DNA from: Streptomyces sp. ALI-76-A
GTDB lineage: Bacteria > Actinomycetota > Actinomycetes > Streptomycetales > Streptomycetaceae
DNA length: 64,000 nt
NCBI RefSeq assembly: GCF_030287445.1
Contig: NZ_JASVWB010000002.1
Span: 1-64,000, forward strand
Direction of reading: 5' to 3'
Of the stretch, positions 5,694 to 36,888 are shown piece after piece. The notes under the pieces are model-generated. The model saw nothing but the letters and a program-made list of their open reading frames with translations. It did no database searches and was not told where the DNA came from. The translations under genes and the position numbers were made by a program. The stretch's first letter is position 1. The number at the start of each line of letters is the position of its first letter.

Positions 5694-6604
5694 GCCTGGG
5701 CCCGGTCGACAGCCGCCCGGGTCTCGGACTCATCGACGTGGCGGTAGCGGTCCATGGACAGCGGCGAGGCGTGACCCAGCAGCTTTTGCACCACGTCCCG
5801 GTCCACTCCCTCACGCAGCCAGTGGGTGGCCGCGGAGTGGCGCAGCATGTGCGGCCGCGCCGGATGCCCGGCGCGGCGGGCCAGACGGTCGAAGACGTTC
5901 TTGGCGTTCGGGTAGGTCATGGCACGGCCCAGCGGCGGGCGGAAGAGGTTCACGAACACCATGCCTGTCTCGGCCGCCGCGGCCACCGGGTTCCGTTCGT
6001 GCTGGTAGTCGGTGTAGAAGGCGACGTTGTCGGGGGTGACGGGAAGGCAGCGGGGGTGTCGGGACTTGGCCAGGGCCCCATTCGGGTTGTCGGTGCGGCG
6101 CCGCACATGAAGATGCGGGCCCTCCACCGGGCAGCCAAGGGAACGTGACGAGGCCAGGAAGTGCAGATCTTCCTGGCGCAGGCCCAGGGCCTCCCCGATC
6201 CGCAGGCCGGTCGCGGCGAGCAGCGCGATGAGGAAACGGTCACGCGCTCTGGGCGTATCCGCGATCATGCGGCGGATCTGCTGCGGGGACAGGTCCTCGT
6301 AGCCGGGTTCGCTGACCTGGAAACGAAAGGCCGATACCTGAACCTGACGCCACTGGCCACGCTCGCCGGCGTCGTAACCGGCCGGCAAGAACCGCAGGAA
6401 CTTCGGCTCCGGCAGCAAGCCGGCCGTCTGCGCGGGGACCCAGCCGTGCAGTGCGCCGAAGCGCAAGAAGTCCGCAACCGCCGTCATCACCGCGTTCGCC
6501 GTGCCCTGCGAACGGTAGCGGGGCGCAGCCCTGGTCGGAGAGCGGCGGCCGCGGGCCGGCAGCGGCGAGGTCACCAGCCACTGCTGCAACCCGGACAGAG
6601 TCAT
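5690..6604 (-). CDS. Tyrosine recombinase (Tn554 TnpA-like), N-terminus cut by an IS
   Basis: 304 residues remain of a site-specific tyrosine recombinase. The catalytic set is visible: Arg in TGLRIGEALGL, HMLRH, and LLGHASPLSMDRYRHV with the nucleophilic Tyr. The ATG at 6604 is probably internal. The frame stays open upstream (…EWSCPGF) to 6641, where the terminal inverted repeat of an IS256-type element begins, and relatives have a longer N-terminal core-binding domain. The gene overlaps the next recombinase by four bases. With its usual promoter and N-terminus gone, and its partner interrupted, the trio is probably no longer mobile. Confidence 0.75.
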   Translation of the reverse strand: MTLSGLQQWLVTSPLPARGRRSPTRAAPRYRSQGTANAVMTAVADFLRFGALHGWVPAQTAGLLPEPKFLRFLPAGYDAGERGQWRQVQVSAFRFQVSEPGYEDLSPQQIRRMIADTPRARDRFLIALLAATGLRIGEALGLRQEDLHFLASSRSLGCPVEGPHLHVRRRTDNPNGALAKSRHPRCLPVTPDNVAFYTDYQHERNPVAAAAETGMVFVNLFRPPLGRAMTYPNAKNVFDRLARRAGHPARPHMLRHSAATHWLREGVDRDVVQKLLGHASPLSMDRYRHVDESETRAAVDRAQA

Positions 6605-6680
6605 GAAACCCGGACACGACCACTCGATACGGCGCTGGGCGGGTCTGTCAAACGAGCGGTGTAACTGGGGTTGTTGAGGG

Positions 6681-7433
6681 TTATTGACGGGCTGCGGAGA
6701 GGCGGCCGTCGAAGGTGATGTCGAAGGCGTTCAGTGCGGTCTTCCAGCGCATGGTCCAGCGAGCCTGGCCCTTTCCGGTGGGATCGAGCGACATGATCGC
6801 CATGTAGACGCACTTCAACGCGGCCTGCTCGTTGGGGAAGTGACCGCGGGCTTTGACCGCCCGACGGATCCTGGCGTTGACGGACTCGATGGCGTTGGTC
6901 GTGCAGACGATCCGGCGGATCTCGGTGTCGAAGCGGAGGAACGGGGTGAACTCTTCCCACGCGTTCTCCCAGAGCCGCACGATCGCCGGATACTTCCGGC
7001 CCCAGGCGCCGGCGAACTCCGCGAACCGCTCCAGGGCGGCCTCCTCGGTCGGCGCTGTGTAGACGGGCTTGAGGAGCTTGGCGATCTTGTCCCAGTCCTG
7101 GCGGGCGGCATAGCGGAAGGAGTTCCGCAGCAGGTGCACCACGCAGGTCTGCACGATCGTCTTTGACCAGACCGTCTCGACCGCCTCGGGCAGGCCCTTG
7201 AGCCCGTCGCAGACCAGCATCAGCACGTCGTTCACGCCGCGGTTCTTGATCTCGGTGAGGATGTGCATCCAGTGCTTGGCGCCCTCACCGCCGTCGCCGG
7301 CCCACAGCCCGAGGATCTCCCGCCGGCCCTCAACGGTGACGGCCAGGGCCACGTAGATGGGACGGTTGGCGACGGCGCCGTCGCGGATCTTCACGTGGAT
7401 CGCGTCGATGAAGACCACCGGATAGACGGGGCG
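6681..7433 (-). pseudogene. IS256-family (Mutator-type) transposase, C-terminal part
   Basis: This segment runs from PVYPVVFIDAIHVKIRDG to the natural C-terminus. It contains the catalytic Asp in VFIDAIHVK, the LVCDGLKGLPEAV block and the TNAIESVNARIRR block with Glu, all typical of IS256-family transposases. It is separated from its N-terminal half (9222-8657) by the IS30 insertion at about 7435-8656, so no full transposase is made. Confidence 0.85.
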
Positions 7434-7434
7434 G

Positions 7435-8656
7435 TTTCCATCAGTAATTGCGAATCAGCTGGTCAGTGGCCCTATGAGCCATCCTCTCATGGCCTCAATG
7501 GGGGTCTTGTCACCGAGCACGAGACGCGGTCGGTTGTTCAGTTGCCGAGCTACTTCGCGGAGGTCGCGGGCGGTGTGAACGGACAGGTCACTGCCCTTGG
7601 GGAAGTACTGCCGCAGCAGTCCGTTGGTGTTCTCGTTCGTCCCGCGTTGCCAGGGCGAGTGCGGGTCGCAGAAGTAGATCCGGAAGCCGGTGAGCGCCTC
7701 GATTTGCTCGTGGAGAGTCAGCTCGCGGCCTTGATCCCAGGTGAGTGTCTTCCGCAGCTCGGGCGGTATGCCGGCGGTCTGGGTGATGAGTGCGTTGCGG
7801 ACTTGGGGAGCCTTCCAGCCGTGGGGTAGGTGGATGAGCTGGACGTAGCGGGTCGTCCGTTCCACGAGGGTGCCGATCGCCGAGCCCTGGCCGCGTCCGA
7901 TGATGAGATCCCCTTCCCAATGGCCAGGAGTCATACGGTTGTTGACTTCAGCGGGCCGTTGATGGATCAGTGTCATGTTCTTGATCTTGTTGGCGGTGGG
8001 GACGCCTCTGCGCTGTGGTTTGCGGCGGACGCGGCCGGTGCGAAGCTTGCCGGGCCTGCTGCCCAACTGGCCGGCGAAGAGGGCGCGGTAGATCGTCTCC
8101 GGGCAGGCCCGCATTGACCGATCCCTCGGGTAGGTGCGGGTGAGGAAGCGTGCGATCTGCTGTGGTGACCACTTCTCGGTCAGCTTCTCGCGGACGACCG
8201 TCCGAAGCGGCTCGCTCGCCTGGATCTTCTCCGTCTTGGGGCGCTGGCGCCGAAGCAGAGCCTGGTTGTGGGCCCACCAGGGCTGGTAGCGGCCATCGGG
8301 CTTGCCGCCTCGCGTGATCTCCCGGTAGACGGTCTGGAAGCTCTTGCCGATCGAGGCCGCGATCTCCTTGACCGGTAGCCGCGCCTGGAGGCCGTCGGCG
8401 ATGGCGATGCGGTCATCCTGCGTCAGGAAGCGCGGGGATATCGGGCCAGGGTCCGGAACGATCACGCTGCCAGCATCGATGAACCACAGCGACCCGCAGC
8501 TGGTGGACACCCCGACCACGCGGGCTGCTGCTGCCCCTTAGCCCTCGCGCAGCAGCTCGAAGTACCGCTTCTTCATCGCACTCGGCAGCTTGTTGGGGGC
8601 AAACCTTGGCATGCGTACGTCCTTCTACTCAGAGCGTTCGCAACCACCAATGGAAC
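7435..8656 (-). mobile_element. IS30-family element nested in the IS256 element
   Basis: The imperfect terminal inverted repeats start with TTCCAT and include TTGCGAA (7436-7456 against 8655-8635, about 20 of 28 matching when the flanks are included). The element encodes one IS30-type transposase on the minus strand. It interrupts the IS256 transposase between WQNR and PVYP. The exact ends and the short target duplication cannot be fixed, because the host gene seems to have a further small indel beside the insertion. Confidence 0.75.
7455..8612 (-). pseudogene. IS30-family transposase, early TAA stop
   Basis: The DDE residues are visible in HWEGDLIIG, TLTWDQGREL and DPHSPWQRGTNENTNG (Asp, Asp, Glu), and an N-terminal HTH is seen at LPVKEIAASIGKSFQTVYRE. 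The natural start is probably the ATG at 8612 (MPRFAPNKLPSAMKKRYFELL). The frame then meets TAA at 8540-8538 after 24 codons. Downstream it is open again to 7455 and could restart at the GTG at 8519, giving 354 residues with the HTH and catalytic domain intact. So the protein may be lost or merely shortened. Confidence 0.75.
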
Positions 8657-9222
8657 TCAAGCGGCGTCGAGCGGCGGTTCTGCCACTCGGCCATGCCGTC
8701 CAGGACCTTGTCGGTGATCGTGGAGATCGTCTGGCGGGATACGTCGGCTCCATAGACTTCCGCCAGGTGAGCCTGGACCTCACCGGTCGTCAGGCCCTTC
8801 GCAGCGAGCGAGATGACCATCTCGTCAACGCCGGTCAGGCGTTTCTGCCGCTTCTTGACGATCCTCGGCTCGAAGCTGCCTTCCCGGTCGCGGGGAACGG
8901 CTATCTCGACCGGGCCGACGTCGGTGAGCACGGTCTTGGCACGGGTGCCGTTGCGTGAGTTGCCGCCGTTCTTCCCGGCCGGATCATGCTTGCCATAGCC
9001 GAGATGGTCGGTGATCTCGCCCTCGAGAGCGGACTCCAGAAGCCGCTTGGTCAGCTGCTGGAGCAGCCCGCCCTCGCCGGTCAGCTGAAGGCCCTCGGCC
9101 TGAGCCCGGCCCACCAGCTCGTCGATCAGCTGGTCGTCCACAGACTTCGCTGGCGCCGCTTCAGACGGCTCGACGGACTCGGCCTCAGGCATGTTGTTGC
9201 TGGTCATCGATGCATCTTCCAT
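8657..9222 (-). pseudogene. IS256-family transposase, N-terminal part
   Basis: It starts MEDASMTSNNMPEAES and carries the usual IS256 N-terminal blocks: LGYGKHDPAGKNGGNSRNG, a zinc-free linker and VSRQTISTITDKVLDGMAEW. After WQNR the reading frame runs into IS30 sequence. The matching C-terminal half is at 7433-6681. The ATG at 9222, or the internal ATG at 9207, would be the start. Confidence 0.8.
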
Positions 9223-9255
9223 GATCGGGAGTTACACCGAACGATTTACAGTCCC

Positions 9256-10076
9256 CGGGCGGCCGGAGTGTCCGCCGACTCGGGTTGCGTCGCCGCGACG
9301 TTCGCGAGCTCGGGCTCGGTTGCCTCGGGGGCAGGAAGAGCGTGGGGCAGGCAGCCGCGGTGAGTGGCGGCGATTTCCTGAACGCGCCGGGACAGGCCCT
9401 GCCACAGATGGAAGCGGTCACTGACCTGGACGGCTTCTGGGGCGCCGTCGGCGATGCCCTGCCGATAGGTGAGCGAGCCGTCGCGGCAGGCGATCTCCAC
9501 ACCGGGATGTCCGCGCAGCCATCGGCTGAGCTGTTCGGCGTCTCTGCCTTCCCAGAGTGTCAGCGGGAGTCTGCTGTCGGCGTCGACCAGGAGGGTGCCG
9601 TAGGTATTGGCGTACAGTGCGAAGTCGTCCACACCGAGCACCCGGGGTGTGACCAGCGGCGGCAGCGGCACCCGCATCAGCTGCGCGAGCACGGTGCACC
9701 GCGACAGGCTGATGTTGAGTATGCGCAGCATCCTCGCCCCACCCCGGCCGGACAGCACCACGCCGACCGCCTCGACCAAGTGCTGCAGCAGCGGGGTGCG
9801 CCGCTGATAGCGCACGGTCAGTCCCGGCACCTGCTCGGCGAAGGTCATCTTCGGACAGGCCGAGTTCTCGCAGTACAGACGGCGCACGCTCAAGTCGATG
9901 CGGACCGGCCTGCCTTCAAGCGCGGCATCGGCGAGGTGCCGTACGTAGCGGCTGTGCATCCACTCGCTCAGCGTGCCGCATCCCGTACACCCTGCCGGAG
10001 CACCGGATCTGGTACGAGCCTGGATCACAACGGCAGGACCAGAAGCATCGACCGAGACCACCAGCACAGCCGCCAA
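9256..10076 (-). pseudogene. ISL3-family transposase, C-terminus missing
   Basis: The N-terminal 270 residues of an ISL3-type transposase: zinc-binding motif CTGCGTLSEWMHSRYVRHL, a second cysteine pair CENSACPKMTFAEQ, then the start of the DDE domain with VLGVDDFALYANTYGT and SDRFHLWQGL. The frame is cut at 9256 by the end of the IS256-type element, and its stop codon comes from IS256 sequence. The missing half (about 200-250 residues) is not found on the far side of the IS256 element, so sequence has been deleted. Confidence 0.8.
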
Positions 10077-10096
10077 CTGCGGTAACAGCTTGGTTA

Positions 10097-11240
10097 CTGA
10101 GGTTTTCGGGTTGTCGTCGGGTGGTGACGGTTCATGATCCCTGCGGTATGCCGGTGGTATGCGTTATCCGGAGGGTGGGGGCCTGACCGCTGAGCGTCGG
10201 GCCTTTCGGGAGAAGATCCGGCTCCGGGCCGGTGAGAGGTTCACGGCGGGCGAGAAGACTGCGGTGATCGCCAGGGATTTGCGGGTGAGTGTGCGGTCGG
10301 TGGAACGCTGGCGCCGTGCCTGGCGCGAGGGTGGCATGGAGGCCCTGCGTTCTGCGGGCCCGGCCAACTCCCCGACCGTCACCGATGCCCAGTTCGCCGT
10401 GCTCGAGGAGGAACTCGGCAAGGGTCCGTCAGCGCACGGCTTCGGCGATGAGCGGTGGACGTTGGCCCGGGTCCAGACGGTGATCCGCCGGCGTCTGAGG
10501 CTGAGCCTGTCGGTGGCGACGGTGTGGCGGCTGTTGAAACGGCACGGCTGGTCATGGCAGGCGCCCGCCCGCAGAGCACTCGAACGCGACGAGCACGCCG
10601 TCGAACTGTGGAAGAAGGAGGTGTGGCCGAGGGTAAAAGCCTCGCGGCGGCCCACGGGGCCTGGATCGTCTTCGAGGACGAGTCCGGATTCTCCATGACG
10701 CCGCCTCGCGCCCGCACCTGGGGCCGGCGCGGACACACCCCCGTCATCCGAGTGAGAGGCCGCTCCCGCCGCAGGACCTCGGTCGCCGCCCTGTGCTGCT
10801 ACAAACCGGGCGTGGAAAGCCGTCTCATCCACCGGCCCCGCAACCACCTCCTCCTCAAAGGCGCACGCAAGAGCTTCTCCTGGCAGGACTACCGCGACCT
10901 GCTCGTCCGTGCACACATCCAGCTCAGCGGCCCGATCGTAGTGGTCTGGGACAATCTCAACACCCACCTGGCGGCCGGGCTGAAACGGTACGAGGCCGAG
11001 CACGACTGGCTCACCACCGTCCGCCTCCCGCCGTATGCACCCGACCTGAACCCCGTCGAGACCCTCTGGTCACTGGTACGCCGGGCCATGGCCAACACCG
11101 CCTTCGACACACCCGACGGCCTCGACCGCACACTCCGCCGGGAGTTACGAAGGATCCAACTCCGGCCACACCTGATCGACGGTTGCCTCACCGCCACCGG
11201 CCTGACCCTCGCACCACCGACCCCACCCTGAAAACCTCAG
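10097..11240 (+). mobile_element. IS630-family element, complete, with TA target duplication
   Basis: The ends are inverted repeats starting CTGAGGTTTTC (10097-) and ending GAAAACCTCAG (-11240). They are flanked on both sides by the dinucleotide TA (10095-10096 and 11241-11242), the signature of IS630/Tc1-mariner insertion. Length is 1144 bp. It carries one transposase in two overlapping frames and has landed against an IS5-family remnant. Confidence 0.88.
10159..11231 (+). CDS. IS630-family transposase, two frames joined by a -1 shift
   Basis: The first frame (10159-10698) holds the N-terminal HTH domains (TAVIARDLRVSVRSVERW and a winged HTH). The DDE domain lies in the -1 frame up to 11231: VFEDESGF (Asp), VVWDNLNTH (Asp) and DLNPVETLWS (Glu). 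The crossing region contains A-AAA-G at 10635-10639, a sequence prone to -1 slippage. Both halves are otherwise intact and the terminal repeats are clean, so a programmed shift is plausible. A simple one-base mutation would look the same. Confidence 0.8.
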
Positions 11241-11470
11241 TATCTGGTCGCGGGCGGGATCTCGTGGCGGGCGATGCCCGCGGACTTCCCCGACTGGGGC
11301 CGGGTCTACGCCTTCTTCCGCCGCCGGCGCGAGCACGGGCTGATCACCGAGTTCCACGACCGGCTGCGCGGGAAGGTCCGGGAGCGCGAGGGCCGTGAGG
11401 CCGAGCCCACTGCGGGGATCATCGACGCGCAGTCGGTACGGGCCGCCGCGACGGCGACGGCCGGGAATCC
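11241..11470 (+). pseudogene. IS5-family transposase fragment
   Basis: A short piece of an IS5-type transposase is recognisable as YLVAGGISWRAMPADFPDWG, then RVYAFFRRRREHGLITEFHD and AGIIDAQSVRA. The N-terminus is missing at the IS630 boundary (11241). The catalytic C-terminus is missing, because the sigma-factor gene ends at 11482. It has no function. Confidence 0.75.
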
Positions 11471-11481
11471 CCGCCCAACGC

Positions 11482-12387
11482 TCACCGCGTCGCGACGTCG
11501 TGAGCGGTGCCGTCCGTGATGGCCTGCAGCTTGTCGGGGTTGGCGACGTTGTGGATGGCGGTGATACGACCGTCGGCGTCGAAGTCGAAGGTGACGGTGG
11601 CGATCACCCGGTCCGGGGCGCTGAACACCATGCCCGGACCGCCGTTGATCTCGACGAGCTCGGCGCGCATGTCGGCGGGCTGGACGCCCTGGTAGGTGAC
11701 CGTGCCGATGGCCGCGAACCACGAGGCCACCGTCTGCGCTCCCACGACCGGCTTGAGCGCCTGACGGACCTTGCCGCCGCCGTCGGTCCACAGGGTGACG
11801 TCCGGGGACAACAGCTCCATCAGGGTGTTGATGTCACCACCGGTCGCTGCGGCGAAGAACCGCTCGGTGATCTCGCGCTGCCGAGAGCGGTCGGCGGCAA
11901 ACCGGGGCCTCCTGGCCCGTACGTGCTCACGCGCACGGTGCGCGGCCTGTCGTACCGCCGCCTCGGACCGTTCCACCGCCTCCGCGATCTCGGCGTGGCT
12001 GAAGCCGAAGACCTCTTTGAGCACGAAGACCGCGCGTTCCAGCGGGCTCAGCGTCTCCAGCACCACCAGCATCGCCATCGACACCGACTCGGCGTCCATG
12101 ACGGCGTCGGCGGTGTCGCTGCTGGTGAGGATGGGCTCGGGCAGCCACGGACCGACGTAGGTCTCGCGCTTGTGCCGGGTGGAACGCAGGCGTTCCAGCG
12201 CCAGGTTGGACACGATCCGCGTCAAATAGGCCTTGGGATCGGCGACGTGGGAACGGTCGGCGGACGACCACTTGATCCAGGCGTCCTGCACCGCGTCCTC
12301 CGCGTCGGCCGCGGAGCCGAGGACGCGGTAGGCCACGGAGAACAGCAGCCTGCGGTACTCGTGAAAGACCTGCTGGTCGGCGCTCAC
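11482..12387 (-). CDS. sigJ: ECF41-group RNA polymerase sigma factor (SigJ type) with SnoaL-like C-terminal domain
   Basis: 301 residues. Sigma region 2 lies at about 8-75 (DAEDAVQDAWIKW), region 4 at about 110-160 (LSPLERAVFVLKEVFGFSH), and a SnoaL-like domain from about 170. The three ECF41 hallmarks are present: the linker WLPEP (81-85), DGGGK (202-206) and NPDKL (283-287). In this group the C-terminal domain modulates sigma activity in place of an anti-sigma factor, and the sigma factor usually drives the neighbouring oxidoreductase gene. The GTG start overlaps the stop of that gene (GTGA at 12387-12384), so the two are translationally coupled. A longer open frame to 12432 exists but would overlap the upstream gene more. 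Confidence 0.88.
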   Translation of the reverse strand: MSADQQVFHEYRRLLFSVAYRVLGSAADAEDAVQDAWIKWSSADRSHVADPKAYLTRIVSNLALERLRSTRHKRETYVGPWLPEPILTSSDTADAVMDAESVSMAMLVVLETLSPLERAVFVLKEVFGFSHAEIAEAVERSEAAVRQAAHRAREHVRARRPRFAADRSRQREITERFFAAATGGDINTLMELLSPDVTLWTDGGGKVRQALKPVVGAQTVASWFAAIGTVTYQGVQPADMRAELVEINGGPGMVFSAPDRVIATVTFDFDADGRITAIHNVANPDKLQAITDGTAHDVATR

Positions 12388-13763: not shown

Positions 13764-15463
13764 GGTTCTGGCCGCAGTTCCGTGAATGACCAGGTCAGAG
13801 GCGGCATGCAGGAACGTTCCTCTATGGGACATCCTGTGCATGGGGGTCGAATCGCTCGCTGATGTTCTGTTCTCCGGTTTCGATGTGCGGTTGACGCGCG
13901 TCACCGAGGTCGCCGAGGGGCTGGTCGTCGAGGCGGTCGCGTGCGGGCCGCCACCACGTTGTCCGGGTGTAACTCGCAGGCATCGAGAGTGCATTCGTCG
14001 TACGAGCGGGGCCTGGCCGGGCTGCCGATGAACGGGCGCAGCCTGACCGTGCGGTTACGGATCCGGCGGTTTTTCTGCGACCGCGGCCGGTGTCCGAGGC
14101 GGACGTTCGTCGAGCAGGTCGCCAAGCTCAGCGAGCGGTACCGCCGCTCCAGCCTCGGACTGAAGCAGTGGCAGCATGCGGTTGCGGTCGAGCTGGGTGG
14201 TCGCCCCGGTCAACGGCTCTGTCGGCGGCTGCGGTTGAGGGCGGGCCGGACGCGGCTGCTGGGCCTGCTCACGGAGCCGGCCGTGCCCGAGCAGGCGCCG
14301 CGCGTGCTCGGTGTCGACGATTTCGCCTTCCGCAAGGGGAAGCGGTACGGCACCTTGCTGGTCGACGTGGAATCCGGACGTGTGGTTGATGTCCTGCCCG
14401 ACCGCGAGTCCGACACCTTCGCCGCCTGGCTCACCGCGCATCCCGGCGCCGAGATCATTTGCAGGGACCGTGCCACCGCTTACAGCAAAGCGATCAAGGA
14501 AGCCGCGCCGGACGCCCTGGAGGTCGCAGACCGCTGGCATCTGCTGCAGAACCTCGGCGCGGCCGTGGAGAAGACCTGTCATCAACACCGCTCCTGCCTG
14601 CGGAAACATGCCGAGGAGGAGACTGCGGTGCCCCTGGCAGCGGCCGTCACGATCACCGAGTTGCCGCCCGCCGAGCTGCCCCGAACCCAGATCATCGAGC
14701 GGACCCGGCAGCGTCACGCCGACGTCCACCGGCTCGTGGACGCCGGCTGGACCATCAGTGCCATCGCCCGCCGTCTCCACCTGGACCGCAAGACCGTGCG
14801 CCGCTTCCGCGACACGGGCCTCGACATCCTCCTGGCCTCTGCCCGCGACCGCCGCCCCACCGGCGTCCTCGCCCCGTTCAAGGCATACACCACCGCACGC
14901 TTCACCGACACCGGCGGCAGCGTCACCGCACCCCAGGTCCTCGCCGAGATCCGTACGCAGGGCTATCGCGGCAGCGTCCAGGCCATCCGCAAACACTTCG
15001 CATCCCTCCGCGACGGCACCGCCGAACCCGTACGCGCCGACATCCCCAGCCCCCGGAAGATCACCTCGTGGATCATGTGCCGCCGGGAAGACCTCAGCAC
15101 GAAAGACGACGAACGACTCCTCCAAGTCCGGCTCGCCTGCCCGGACATCACCCGCGCCTGCGACCTCGCCCGCACCTTCCACGACCTGGTCACATACCGC
15201 CGCGGACACCTGCTGATGGACTGGATCCGCCAGGCCGAACAGGATGCTCCCGCACCCGTTCGCGGCTTCGGCGGCTTCCTCCGCCAGGACCTCGCTGCCG
15301 TCACCGCCGGCCTCACCCTGGAATGGAGCTCCGGCGTCGTCGAGGGCAACGTGAACAGAGTAAAAACGATCAAGAGGAGCATGTACAACCGGGCATCCTT
15401 CCGGCTCCTCCGGATCCGCATCCTCACCCGACCATGAGCTTCACGGAACTGCGGCCAGAACCT
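13764..15463 (+). mobile_element. ISL3-family element, complete, with 8-bp target duplication
   Basis: Perfect 23-bp terminal inverted repeats lie at 13764-13786 and 15441-15463; the outer bases are GGTTCTGGCCGCAG. The directly repeated TTCTTCAA flanks the element at 13756-13763 and 15464-15471, the 8-bp duplication expected for this family. Length is 1700 bp. The only gene is a transposase with one frameshift. The perfect repeats and target site imply a recent arrival. Confidence 0.92.
13840..15437 (+). pseudogene. ISL3-family transposase with one frameshift
   Basis: The start is MGVESLADVLFSGFDVRLT at 13840. The zinc motif should read CPGCNSQASRVHSSYER, but one G is missing near 13965-13970 (CCGGGTGT where CCGGGGTGT is expected), so the frame changes inside the motif. 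From there an open frame runs to 15437 with VLGVDDFAFRKGKRYGT, VADRWHLLQNL, an HTH (WTISAIARRLHLDRKTVRR) and the C-terminal LEWSSGVVEGNVNRVKT with Glu. The element could move only with help from an intact relative. Confidence 0.85.
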
Positions 15464-33530: not shown

Positions 33531-33784
33531 TTCCAAGCCGCTTACGATGGCCGGCCCCTGAGGCTGTGCCGACACGATGAATCCCGACGACACTCCCGCA
33601 CGGCTCCGACCCGGCAGAGCCGAAATAGGCTCTGCCGGAGATCTTGTGACAGAGCCCGTCTGCACTGGGCATCAACTGGGTGTGCGGTTCAGGGGATTGG
33701 GGCGGTTGCTGCCGCATTTAGCCGGTGTGGTGGTGGAGTCGGTGGAGCGGGCCGCTGGGGTGGTCACGTTTCGTACGCCGTGCC

Positions 33785-33835
33785 TGGCTCTGTTCATCAG
33801 AACGGACAGCAGAGATTCACCACTTCGGGAGGCAC
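33785..33835 (+). repeat. Left terminal inverted repeat of the cargo cassette
   Basis: 51 bp, starts TGGCTCTGTTCATC and ends CGGGAGGCAC. It pairs with 35841-35891 with three mismatches. Confidence 0.88.
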
Positions 33836-33896
33836 CTGAGCCGTCCTGGAAATCGAACACCCTGCCTTCCTGGACGTATCTGGCGAAGGCGGACTT

Positions 33897-34571
33897 TCAG
33901 ACGTTCTGCTGTCGGGCGAAGGGCCCGCACAGGGCTGCCCATTGCAGGAGCAGGATGGTCTTGCCGTCGGTGATGCGTCCGTCGCGGGTCATGGCGAGGG
34001 CCTCGGCAAAGGGAAGTTCGAGGACTTCGATGTCCTCGCCCTCTTCCTCGAGTCCTCCGCCCATGCCGGTCCGGTCGGCCGGGGTGTAGGGGGCGGCGAA
34101 GAAGTGGAGGCGCTCGGTGACGGAGCCCGGGCTCATGTAGGCATCGAGCACGTGGGTGAGGGGGCCGAGTCTGATGCCGAGTTCTTCGGCGCTCTCGCGG
34201 CGGATCGCGGTGTGCGGGTCTTGCGCGTCGAGCAGTCCGGCCGCCGCCTCGATGAGCATGCCGTCGGGGTGGCTGTTCACGTAGGCCGGGTAGCGGAACT
34301 GGCGGGTCAGCAGGACGCGGCTGCGTTCGGTGTCGTAGGGCAGGACGACGGCGCCGTTGCCGCGGTCGTAGGTCTCGCGCCGCTGGGTCTCCCACCGTCC
34401 GTCGCGGCGCCGATAGTCGAAGGTGGTGCGGCGCAGGACGTGCCAGCCCTGGGAGGTGAGTTCGACGTCGCGTATCCGGACGTCGGGGTTGCGGTTGAGG
34501 TCGCGTCCGGCGAGGTGGAGACCGGTGCGTCCACGGTGATCGGGGGTGTCGACACCCGGGCTGCTCGTCAC
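33897..34571 (-). CDS. NUDIX hydrolase (NudK-like nucleoside diphosphate sugar hydrolase)
   Basis: 224 residues. The N-terminal β-domain (VRIRDVELTSQGWHVLRRTT) is followed by the NUDIX fold with GLLDAQDPHTAIRRESAEEL at about 113-132 and a C-terminal GMGGGLEEEGEDIEVLELPF block characteristic of GDP-mannose/ADP-ribose pyrophosphatases of the NudK type. The RE-x2-EE core of the NUDIX box is present; the upstream acidic position is Gln, so the substrate or metal binding may differ. Its GTG overlaps the stop of the DUF4406 gene (GTGA at 34571-34568), which couples the two. It is the last gene of the two-gene operon in the cassette. Confidence 0.85.
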   Translation of the reverse strand: MTSSPGVDTPDHRGRTGLHLAGRDLNRNPDVRIRDVELTSQGWHVLRRTTFDYRRRDGRWETQRRETYDRGNGAVVLPYDTERSRVLLTRQFRYPAYVNSHPDGMLIEAAAGLLDAQDPHTAIRRESAEELGIRLGPLTHVLDAYMSPGSVTERLHFFAAPYTPADRTGMGGGLEEEGEDIEVLELPFAEALAMTRDGRITDGKTILLLQWAALCGPFARQQNV

Positions 34572-34951
34572 ATGGTCTCCTGCGGGGTGCGGCGCGGAAT
34601 CTCGGCGACGTCGTGGTAGACGGGTAGGCCGCGGCGGCGAGCGGTGGCGACGTCCTGGTCGGCGCCAGCGGATTCGCCCTGCAAGCGCAGCACGGCGTCG
34701 CAATGGGCGAGCAGTCGGTCGGCGGTCGGGTAGAGCACCTGGTCGGCGAGGGGGTCGGTGGGGCCCGCGCCGGCGGAGCGGAGGACGGGCAGGGCGATCC
34801 ACTCGCCGATCACGGGGAGATGTCCGGCCGCGAAGACGGGCCAGGCCGCGGATTCCAGGCGGGCGAGGTTGGCGGCCATGGCCTGCGGGTCGCCGTCGGT
34901 GCCGGAACGGTAGGGACCCGCGATGAGGATGAGCAGGGGCTTGTCGGTCAT
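34568..34951 (-). CDS. DUF4406 / nucleoside 2-deoxyribosyltransferase-like protein
   Basis: 127 residues. It starts MTDKPLLILIAGPYRSGT, the IAGPYR motif of the nucleoside 2-deoxyribosyltransferase superfamily, with GEWIALPVL in the middle and LRLQGESAGADQDVATARRR (SxGAxxD/E-like active-site region) near 90-110. Members cleave or transfer the base of deoxynucleosides, or bind nucleotide ligands; this short DUF4406 branch is uncharacterised. It is translated together with the NUDIX gene and divergent from the DeoR gene, with only 48 bp between start codons. Confidence 0.75.
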   Translation of the reverse strand: MTDKPLLILIAGPYRSGTDGDPQAMAANLARLESAAWPVFAAGHLPVIGEWIALPVLRSAGAGPTDPLADQVLYPTADRLLAHCDAVLRLQGESAGADQDVATARRRGLPVYHDVAEIPRRTPQETM

Positions 34952-34966
34952 GGCGGCTAAGATACA

Positions 34967-34980
34967 TGCAGAATCGTGCA
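34967..34980. promoter_or_regulatory. Candidate DeoR operator in the cassette
   Basis: TGCA-N6-TGCA (34967-34980) is centred in the 48-bp region between the divergent DUF4406 and DeoR start codons. One site could control both directions. Confidence 0.45.
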
Positions 34981-34999
34981 AGAACAGGAAGGAACGTGA

Positions 35000-35755
35000 A
35001 TGCTGGCTGCTGAACGACGCGAGCATCTGCTCGATCTGCTCGCCCGCACGGGAAAGATCGTGGCCAAGGACGTCGCCGCCGAACTGGGCATTTCCGAAGA
35101 CAGCGTGCGGCGTGACCTTCGCGATCTCGCCGCCGAGGGGTTGTGCCAAAGGGTGTACGGTGGCGCGCTGCCCGCGTCTCCCGCAGTGGTGGACTACGAC
35201 GCCCGGCAGGCGGTGGCCCCGGACGGCAAGCGGAAGGTCGCCTCAGTGGCCGCCGCACTGATGCGGCCGGGCGGCTCGGTGATCCTCGACGGCGGCACCA
35301 CCGCCCTCGCCGTGGCGCGGGCGCTCCCGAAGGACCTCGCCTGCACGGTGATCACCCACAGCCCGACGATCGCCACGGCTCTGATCGACCACCCGCTGGC
35401 GGAACTCTTCCTCCTCGGGGGGCGCGTATTCAAGCACTCGGCGGTCACCTGCGGCGCCGCCGCGGTCGAGGCCGCGCAGAACGTCTCCGCCGACCTGTGC
35501 CTGCTCGGCGTCACCGGCGTCCACCCCGAGGCCGGACTGACCACGGGGGACGCCGAAGAGGCGGCGATGAAGCGTGCCCTGTCCGCGCGGGCCGCGGACA
35601 CCTACATCCTCGCCTCTTGCGAGAAGATCGGTACGGCCTCGCCGTACCGCGTCCTGCCATGGGAGAAGATCACCGGGCTGATCACCGACGCCGATCCTCA
35701 CGACACGGTCATCGAGCAACTCAAGACACTCGGCGTGGAGGTCCTCGTAGCCTGA
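35000..35755 (+). CDS. DeoR/GlpR-family transcriptional regulator
   Basis: 251 residues. The DeoR HTH is at 1-57 (MLAAERREHLLDLLARTGKI then LGISEDSVRRDLRDLAAEGL), followed by the sugar-phosphate-sensing DeoRC domain with ILDGGTTALAVARALP, LLGGRVFKHSAVTCG and LTTGDAEEAAMKRALSARA. Regulators of this family respond to phosphorylated sugars. Here it is divergent from the deoxyribosyltransferase-like and NUDIX genes, so a (deoxy)ribose- or sugar-nucleotide-derived phosphate is a reasonable guess for the ligand. The ATG at 35000 has GGAAGGAA six bases upstream. Confidence 0.88.
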   Translation: MLAAERREHLLDLLARTGKIVAKDVAAELGISEDSVRRDLRDLAAEGLCQRVYGGALPASPAVVDYDARQAVAPDGKRKVASVAAALMRPGGSVILDGGTTALAVARALPKDLACTVITHSPTIATALIDHPLAELFLLGGRVFKHSAVTCGAAAVEAAQNVSADLCLLGVTGVHPEAGLTTGDAEEAAMKRALSARAADTYILASCEKIGTASPYRVLPWEKITGLITDADPHDTVIEQLKTLGVEVLVA

Positions 35756-35840
35756 TGAGAGCCGAATGCGGGATCTCGGACCGGCAGGAGCGCCCTCTGA
35801 TGTGCTGAGCCCGTAGCGAATCGGACAATCCCCACGCGCA

Positions 35841-35891
35841 GTGCCTCCCGAAGTGGTGAACATCTGCTGTCCGTTCCGATGAACAGAGCCA
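35841..35891 (-). repeat. Right terminal inverted repeat of the cargo cassette
   Basis: 51 bp, complement of the left repeat with three mismatches; its outer end is GATGAACAGAGCCA at 35891. Confidence 0.88.
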
Positions 35892-36295
35892 CCGTGCCGG
35901 ACGCTGCCGGTGCGGTGTCCGGAGTGCGGCATACCGTCCTGGCGGGTGCACGGCCGGTACACGCGGCGGTCGCGAGATGCTCCGGTCGGGCTGACGCCGG
36001 CGGTGATCGAGTTCGTGGTGCGGCGGTTCACGTGCAGCAACTCCCGCTGGGCCGCGGTGATGTTCGCCGAGCAGGTGGAGGGCCTGACGCAGCCACATGC
36101 CCAATACGCGCCGCTGTTACGCCGGATGCTGTCGTCGATCGCGACGGTGCTGGCGGGGCGTCCATGTGCCCGGCTGGCCGTGCCGCCAGGGATGCCGGTG
36201 GCCAAGGACGTACTCCCGAACGCCTTCGCTGTCACCTTCGGGGGCCGCCTCCCAGCGGCCCTCCCTCAGGTGCAGGAGCCCGCATGGGGGCACGA

Positions 36296-36346
36296 CAGCC
36301 CTGGAGAGTGCCAGGCTCCAGGGCTGCCCGCCAGCCCTGGGCGGGC
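36296..36346. repeat. Two adjacent perfect hairpins
   Basis: CAGCCCTGGAG (36296-36306) pairs with CTCCAGGGCTG (36316-36326) over a 9-base loop. It is followed at once by GCCCGCC (36326-36332) and GGCGGGC (36340-36346) over a 7-base loop. They lie past a minus-strand frame end (LEQVLATFEPGATTTPAAPA), so they may be a strong terminator brought in with that fragment. Confidence 0.55.
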
Positions 36347-36469
36347 GGATAGCCGGCGGGCGCCGGGCTCTCGCCGACGGCCGGCCACTGCGGCCGTCCG
36401 GACGCGTCGGCGCCGGTTATGCGGGTGCTGCCGGTGTGGTGGTGGCCCCGGGCTCGAAGGTGGCCAGCA

Positions 36470-36888
36470 CCTGCTCCAGAGTCTTGCTGGTCAGACCGCC
36501 TCGGGAGCGCCCGAGGCCGGGACAGCGGGCCCCCTTTTCGGGCCCCGGCGGCGTGCTGGTGAGCACGGACGATGGTGGAGTCGACCGACACGAGCCAGTC
36601 GATGTCCCCGGCCGCGTCCGCCCTGGCCAGGGCGGCCCGGAGCATGCCCTCGAACGTGCCGTCCAGAGCCCACCGGCGAAAGCGGGTGTACAGCGTGGCC
36701 CACGGGCCGTACCGCTCCGGCACGTCCCGCCAGGCCGTTCCGGTGCGGAACTTCCACACGATCCCGTTGAGCACCTTGCGGTCGTCCAGCCGCTTCCGGC
36801 CTCGCAGTGACATCGGCAGCAGTGGCCGGACGAACTCCCACTCGGCATCAAACAGTTCATGGCGACGTATCACCCGACCATGATCCAC
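36470..36888 (-). pseudogene. IS5-family (IS427-like) transposase, first-half fragment
   Basis: It starts MDHGRVIRRHELFDAEWEFV. It contains the N-terminal domain (GIVWKFRTGTAWRDVPERYG, WATLYTRFRRWALDGTFEGM) and the first catalytic Asp (WLVSVDSTIVRAHQHAAGAR). Near 36520 the frame shifts to LGRSRGGLTSK, and homology then stops; the remaining catalytic part is gone. Minus-strand DNA beyond this is unrelated. Confidence 0.8.

Follow-up and report, generated by a model that had tools for sequence, protein, structure and literature searches.

A 2.1 kb segment carrying three metabolic genes between paired inverted ends is found at positions 33785..35891 of a window of 64,000 nt from Streptomyces sp. 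ALI-76-A (GCF_030287445.1, NZ_JASVWB010000002.1, positions 1-64,000; "the window" denotes this whole stretch). The segment is read as an IS21-family mobile insertion cassette in which istA and istB are replaced by the three-gene cargo (estimated probability about 0.86). Shared ends, target duplications, the existence of autonomous IS21 elements and a matrix ranking that is exact to the base lead together to this assignment. The observations that bear on it directly are the ends and duplication of this copy, homologues of the empty site, about two dozen sister cassettes with duplications of their own, and autonomous IS21 elements that share end architecture and duplication size. The original prediction had described the logic of a mobile insertion cassette with a cargo moved in trans. 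This is supported, and, judged from sequence, the cassette would almost certainly have moved in that way.

The inverted ends had been described as matching at 48 of 51 positions; the count is correct, and the likeness ends directly past base 51. CCGTGCC is present outside both ends, as had been reported (Table 1). The pair of ends and the target duplication enclose genes that do not serve transposition, and ORF, Pfam and NCBIfam scans agree with the earlier statement that the element holds no mobility gene, its cargo being a NUDIX gene, a DUF4406-named open reading frame and a DeoR gene. At least two internal repeats per end, as in IS21, are indicated by alignment by eye and by the third-repeat offsets given below. 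Since istA and istB are absent, the element is an IS21-type derivative and not an IS21 element proper. It also carries genes and therefore falls outside the definition of a MITE, which is short and without coding capacity.

Table 1. Features of the cassette and its target (window positions)
Feature	Position	Strand	Basis
Target, ISL3 transposase remnant, left part	33577..33784	+	Junction and homologue comparison
Target duplication, left copy, CCGTGCC	33778..33784	.	Sequence comparison
Left terminal inverted repeat, IS21-type end; TGTTCAC...CGG-AG repeat present twice (by-eye alignment)	33785..33835	+	Second-best window position, IS21 left-end matrix
NUDIX hydrolase, NudK/AdpP-like, 224 aa	33897..34571	-	PF00293 1.1e-9
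DUF4406-named protein, 127 aa	34568..34951	-	Name from annotation of the NZ_CP109451.1 locus
Divergent intergenic region, 48 bp	34952..34999	.	Gene layout
DeoR/GlpR-family regulator, 251 aa	35000..35755	+	PF00455 1.4e-42, PF08220 1.8e-12
Right terminal inverted repeat, IS21-type end	35841..35891	-	Best window position, IS21 left-end matrix
Target duplication, right copy, CCGTGCC	35892..35898	.	Sequence comparison
Target, ISL3 remnant, right part with zinc ribbon	35899..36352	+	PF14690 3.9e-12

The NUDIX protein scores 140.6 bits against TIGR00052 (cut-off 79.55) and 188 bits against the NudK model, below its cut-off of 234; comparison with NudK in the PDB gave 9.5e-51. The DUF4406 gene of the original prediction stands as an open reading frame, which shares 4 bases with the start of the NUDIX gene. 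Its name stands by the annotation of a plasmid locus with 96% identity and not by domain content, as Pfam, NCBIfam and PDB scans gave no match. The DeoR gene is divergent from the DUF4406-NUDIX pair, and gene layout suggests that the short region between them is likely regulated by DeoR. The cargo is perhaps concerned with nucleotide-sugar or nucleoside housekeeping. A defence-system cargo was considered and rejected: PADLOC gave weak HTH-type matches for DeoR and nothing else.

A relative of the cargo is on a linear plasmid of Streptomyces sp. NBC_01471 (NZ_CP109451.1), a copy with 96% identity over 95% coverage. An ISL3-type end breaks into its right end, so that a residue of one end is left; a left end was looked for at this locus and not found. 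Strain NBC_00376 carries NUDIX and DeoR genes without DUF4406, flanked by two decayed ends, and SAT1 has a NUDIX-DeoR pair without cassette-type ends. The pair therefore exists also outside recognisable cassettes, and DUF4406 was gained or lost. A search of phages with the whole cassette gave no match.

Joining the flanks with one copy of the repeat was said to restore an ISL3 transposase frame. The joined sequence does read through as ...VTFRTPC-RTLPVRCPECG..., and its right part matches Pfam Zn_ribbon_ISL3 (Table 1), the host gene being an N-terminal remnant only. The proposed check for empty sites yielded uninterrupted ISL3 homologues of 72-83% identity, which are homologues and not sister-strain copies of the same locus. 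The junction, at base 145 of the 286-base query, is crossed without interruption in other genomes, among them G193 (query 1-282, 78%), and in an ISL3 paralogue of the same genome as the window (query 1-168, 83%). The choice of an ISL3 gene as target is incidental. An IS5-family transposase gene (DUF4096; NF033580 121.5 bits, cut-off 110) adjoins the remnant at 36232-36888. Elsewhere in the window, at 13764-15462, the ends (GGTTCTGGCCGCAGTTCCGTGAA) point to an ISL3-like element, whose 8-bp duplication is TTCTTCAA.

The relation of the cassette ends to IS21 was examined with a 52-column matrix built from 20 autonomous IS21 left ends only and slid along both strands of the window (about 128,000 positions). 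These left ends, like those of the larger matrix described next, had been placed by their distance from istA and a loose pattern that constrained bases 1-12; the remaining 40 columns were free. The two highest-scoring positions are 35891 on the minus strand (30.0) and 33785 on the plus strand (27.9), which are exactly the outermost bases of the cassette; no other position scores above -15.3. When matrices were built from 27 IS21 left ends and 27 right ends, all of 38 cassette ends exceeded every one of 7,600 shuffles. These 38 ends represent 19 pairs with duplication taken from 29 rows that show a duplication, ten loci (weak, nested or duplicate) having been left out. A third repeat is at offset 71 in IS21 left ends and at offset 74 in right ends, and of 22 third repeats detected in cassette ends, 20 are at offset 71, 75 or 64.

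Autonomous insertion sequences with ends of the same kind, which had been suggested as something to look for, were found as IS21-family elements with both istA and istB. A scan of IS21 loci showed one (L167) where a truncated IstA frame begins at base 146 within a cassette-like end. Relatives of this IstA on Streptomyces plasmids and genomes include full istA-istB elements of 3.2-5.6 kb, and the pETH1 copy scores 227 bits for IstA (cut-off 160) and 259 bits for IstB (cut-off 200). The typical left end is TGGCTTTATTCACGAGTAGTGCCGTCAGTTGTTCACGGGTTTGGGAGGCACC, with a third repeat further inward. Duplications of 6-7 bp are present at 20 IS21 loci, for example GTCGGT in S. mutabilis, GGCAGG in Actinacidiphila and TTCGAG at the pETH1 copy. 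In all, 49 IS21 loci were examined, of which 12 lacked a left end by the rule used and 31 had an accepted right end; acceptance was by duplication or inner repeat, so that 20 of 31 should not be read as an unbiased rate. One locus at a contig edge (L262) was kept out of the 20. In most delimited copies a further gene lies between istB and the right end. Pfam places nine of ten such passengers scanned in a family: YdjC-like, methyltransferase (two), HAD, acetyltransferase, YunG, L-PSP, MFS and phosphotransferase. Cargo common to autonomous copies and cassettes comes to two weak matches at the family level, with nothing beyond.

Ends are shared with autonomous elements in repeat spacing and duplication size, and in sequence up to 36/52 identity between the window ends and the closest autonomous end. 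As this is the best single match, the true cognate IstA may belong to another (sister) subfamily. The best relative of the partner IstA in the genome of strain ALI-76-A is 52% identical, and the end-finding script found no ends around it; the script requires a duplication and would overlook a decayed copy. From these two results, the window copy may now be stranded. Among genomes, IstA was present in 28/78 that bear cassettes vs 17/78 others, a weak co-occurrence (Fisher p 0.077). More distant IS21 loci had termini found by the script at 7 of 20, with end sequences other than the cassette-like ones. Several were rejected as partner: L329, L330 and L331 (IstA 53-54% identical) have other ends and 6-8-bp duplications, and L326 (71%), L336 and L337 have TGGCTTT-type ends.

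It could be argued that the cassettes belong to some other transposase with IS21-like ends, or to a fossil family whose helper is extinct, the likeness to IS21 reflecting distant ancestry only. The roughly 30% divergence of the window ends from the closest autonomous copy seen and the failure to see a cognate helper in the same genome are in keeping with this. The similar three-repeat spacing, the same duplication size and the way in which a matrix of IS21 ends only sets the cassette ends apart from the rest of the window make it improbable.

Movement by an ISL3-family transposase is a still poorer explanation. It would fit the many loci where ISL3-type copies or ends adjoin cassette ends, and the target of the window cassette is itself an ISL3 gene. 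ISL3 ends (GGTTCTGGC...), however, differ from cassette ends and sit inside them, about 20 bp from the tip, and the same insertions are present in IS21 left ends (L285, L305 and L307). The ISL3 family makes 8-bp duplications, in agreement with those of the copies at L069, L074 and L077 (such as CGAGAACG), whereas cassettes have 6-7 bp; the window cassette shows neither ISL3 ends nor an 8-bp duplication. ISL3 is accordingly disfavoured as partner and appears as an invader of cassette ends. ISL3-type elements with ends GGYTCTGGC... recur within IS21-type ends at a single site, about 20 bp inward, and cassette ends with such an insertion are seen at L069, L071, L074, L077, L098, L101 and L170. 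The pattern looks like that of an insertion sequence homing to another element's ends.

Least probable of all is a Tn7/Tn402-like (TniA/TnsB) transposase: although multi-site ends would suit such an enzyme, Mu-transpos_C proteins occur in 12/16 cassette-bearing genomes and a TnsB/TniA-like gene lies about 0.8 kb from the cassette at L206, these proteins are as frequent in cassette-free genomes (11/16), and the one TniA element delimited (L215) has unrelated TGTCCTGTCGCA ends and a 5-bp duplication. In these comparisons no TniA-type gene with ends matching those of the cassettes and a 5-bp duplication was found in association with them. That element, at 6228-11861, is a 5.6-kb TniA-bearing stretch duplicating CACGC; ends were also looked for at the remaining TniA-type loci and none were found. 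TnsB/TniA-like genes are at L206, L207, L209 and L212, some of them close to Streptomyces contig or chromosome ends.

The IS21-type cassette of the window is not unique. Its left end matches 72/392 Streptomyces genomes (two candidates scored per genome). A 28-base core pattern is found in 66/392 and a 26-base outer pattern in 78/392, with 0/392 for the reversed-pattern control of both. In a class-wide sample the outer pattern occurs in 7/40 Streptomyces and in 2/354 other genomes, both of the latter at the three-mismatch limit. One of these two, from a class member of a different family (L116, 1181-1526), pairs into 346 bp that have weak cassette-like ends and a repeat of 7 bp; the duplication helped select this pair, and the stretch may be due to chance. 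Among 72,556 named plasmid records 52 carry the end (51 Streptomyces, 1 Kitasatospora), and a search of 50,697 phage records gave no match.

Paired ends delimit elements mostly of 0.6-4.5 kb, with few copies per genome. When pairs were picked by end score alone, 20 of 38 had an exact 6-8-bp target duplication (nine of 6 bp, ten of 7 bp, one of 8 bp); shuffled flanks of the 38 pairs gave a mean of 0.55 and a maximum of 4 in 2000 shuffles. The 18 pairs without an exact duplication are what would be expected from decay or recombination. Weaker pairs were retained only with a duplication, so the unbiased set consists of the 38 score-selected pairs only. Four rows had been removed from it: L114 (a duplicate of L082), one L134 row (a duplicate of L061) and two L134 pairings without duplication. 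The original prediction had proposed looking for the same ends around the same three genes at other loci with different duplications. Such ends with other duplications were found around another cargo: homologues of a protein of about 390 aa are flanked by AGCGCG, CCCAAG and GCAGGCG. Relatives of the three-gene cargo itself in this check were those of NBC_00376, with decayed ends and DUF4406 absent, and NBC_01471, with the residue of one end.

Cargo differs from copy to copy by Pfam. It includes a TetR-like regulator with a short-chain dehydrogenase, a metallo-beta-lactamase-fold protein or an MFS transporter; an aldo/keto reductase with an MFS transporter; a sigma factor with a carboxymuconolactone decarboxylase; and SMI1/KNR4 proteins, an acetyltransferase and a methyltransferase. 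A scan of 53 cargo ORFs gave 17 families at E<=1e-13, none of them a transposase family; at 1e-4 there are 41, of which 25 are among the matches listed. The scan covered ORFs of firm pairs, some of which may be antisense: 50 of 58 ORFs outside the window and the three window ORFs (two re-cut). Those around or including nested ISL3 transposases (L040, L069), the L134 duplicate and a doubtful L038 ORF were left out, as were doubtful pairs. The commonest cargo is a Cys-rich protein of about 390 aa (FVFVCAGCGAELT...), found at L064, L065, L068, L081 and other loci; Pfam gave no match for the two copies that were scanned by themselves. The genome of ALI-76-A has a second cassette end (L004, 7361-9368; C3:27360 onward), followed, by eye, by a gene for this protein. 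An IS that has 34-bp inverted ends and carries a transposase interrupts this gene; a right cassette end was looked for at the locus and not found. As an autonomous partner this copy was rejected, since visual reading shows one more cassette with the same cargo, interrupted by an IS.

In the transposition step envisaged, IstA and IstB supplied by another IS21-family element in the cell, one with ends of the same kind, would bind both ends, bring them into synapsis and insert the packet with a 6-7-bp stagger, in this case doubling CCGTGCC in an old ISL3 remnant. IstA requires two complete repeats per end for integration, according to PMC10122671; by eye, the window cassette appears to retain two transposase-binding repeats within its 51 bp. 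PMC10122671 and PMC11208146 report that IstA assembles as a tetramer on the paired ends and that IstB prepares the target. Cargo would also be exchanged.

The sister packets, which number dozens and carry other genes, point to a common gene-moving system, and a vehicle can be named for small operons encoding regulators, efflux-type pumps, reductases, hydrolases and SMI1/KNR4 proteins in Streptomyces, a genus noted for gene exchange and linear replicons. Without a transposase, cassettes of this kind are not annotated as mobile. The choice of ends by IS21 enzymes, the gain of cargo by cassettes and the repeated landing of an IS inside ends become testable. More tentatively, and with somewhat less than an even chance, there may be a genus-wide economy of cargo between IS21-type ends, made up of istAB elements and of istAB-less cassettes that travel in trans among linear plasmids and chromosomes, with ISL3 preying upon the ends. 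If so, autonomous elements would mostly carry one exchangeable passenger and cassettes whole regulator-enzyme units, and ISL3 predators would insert at one fixed position in IS21-type ends. The system would be a DDE-transposase counterpart of integron cassettes.

The IS231-type cassettes of Bacillus are known mobile insertion cassettes. The terms mobile insertion cassette (MIC) and transporter IS are established (PMC3129680), and the former is also named in PMC3913671. As with the MICs of PMC3129680, the Streptomyces elements have IS ends and a target duplication around passenger genes, no transposase and presumed movement in trans. They differ from known MICs in their IS21-type ends, in cargo that varies across the genus and in the three-gene metabolic cargo. 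Multi-repeat ends with terminal TG/CA are shared with IS21 as presented in PMC10122671 and PMC11208146, and istAB elements with such ends were found; unlike IS21, the window element is without istA and istB. Duplications here are of 6-7 bp, whereas IS5376, the model IS21 element in the same two papers, makes 5 bp. The autonomous Streptomyces IS21 copies, most with a variable passenger after istB, resemble transporter ISs, an IS with passenger genes in PMC3129680; the window element, unlike these, is cargo only. The concept is therefore known, but in the open-licence literature searched, including PMC9330008, no report was found of IS21-based cassettes or of such a cargo-diverse, genus-wide Streptomyces family.

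The cassettes are like MITEs in being non-autonomous and having paired ends, and unlike them in holding intact genes and in their size and low copy number. A cassette-like element at L181 (977-3041) has only about 0.3 kb of its own DNA, with a nested ISL3 element inside, and is possibly a miniature form.
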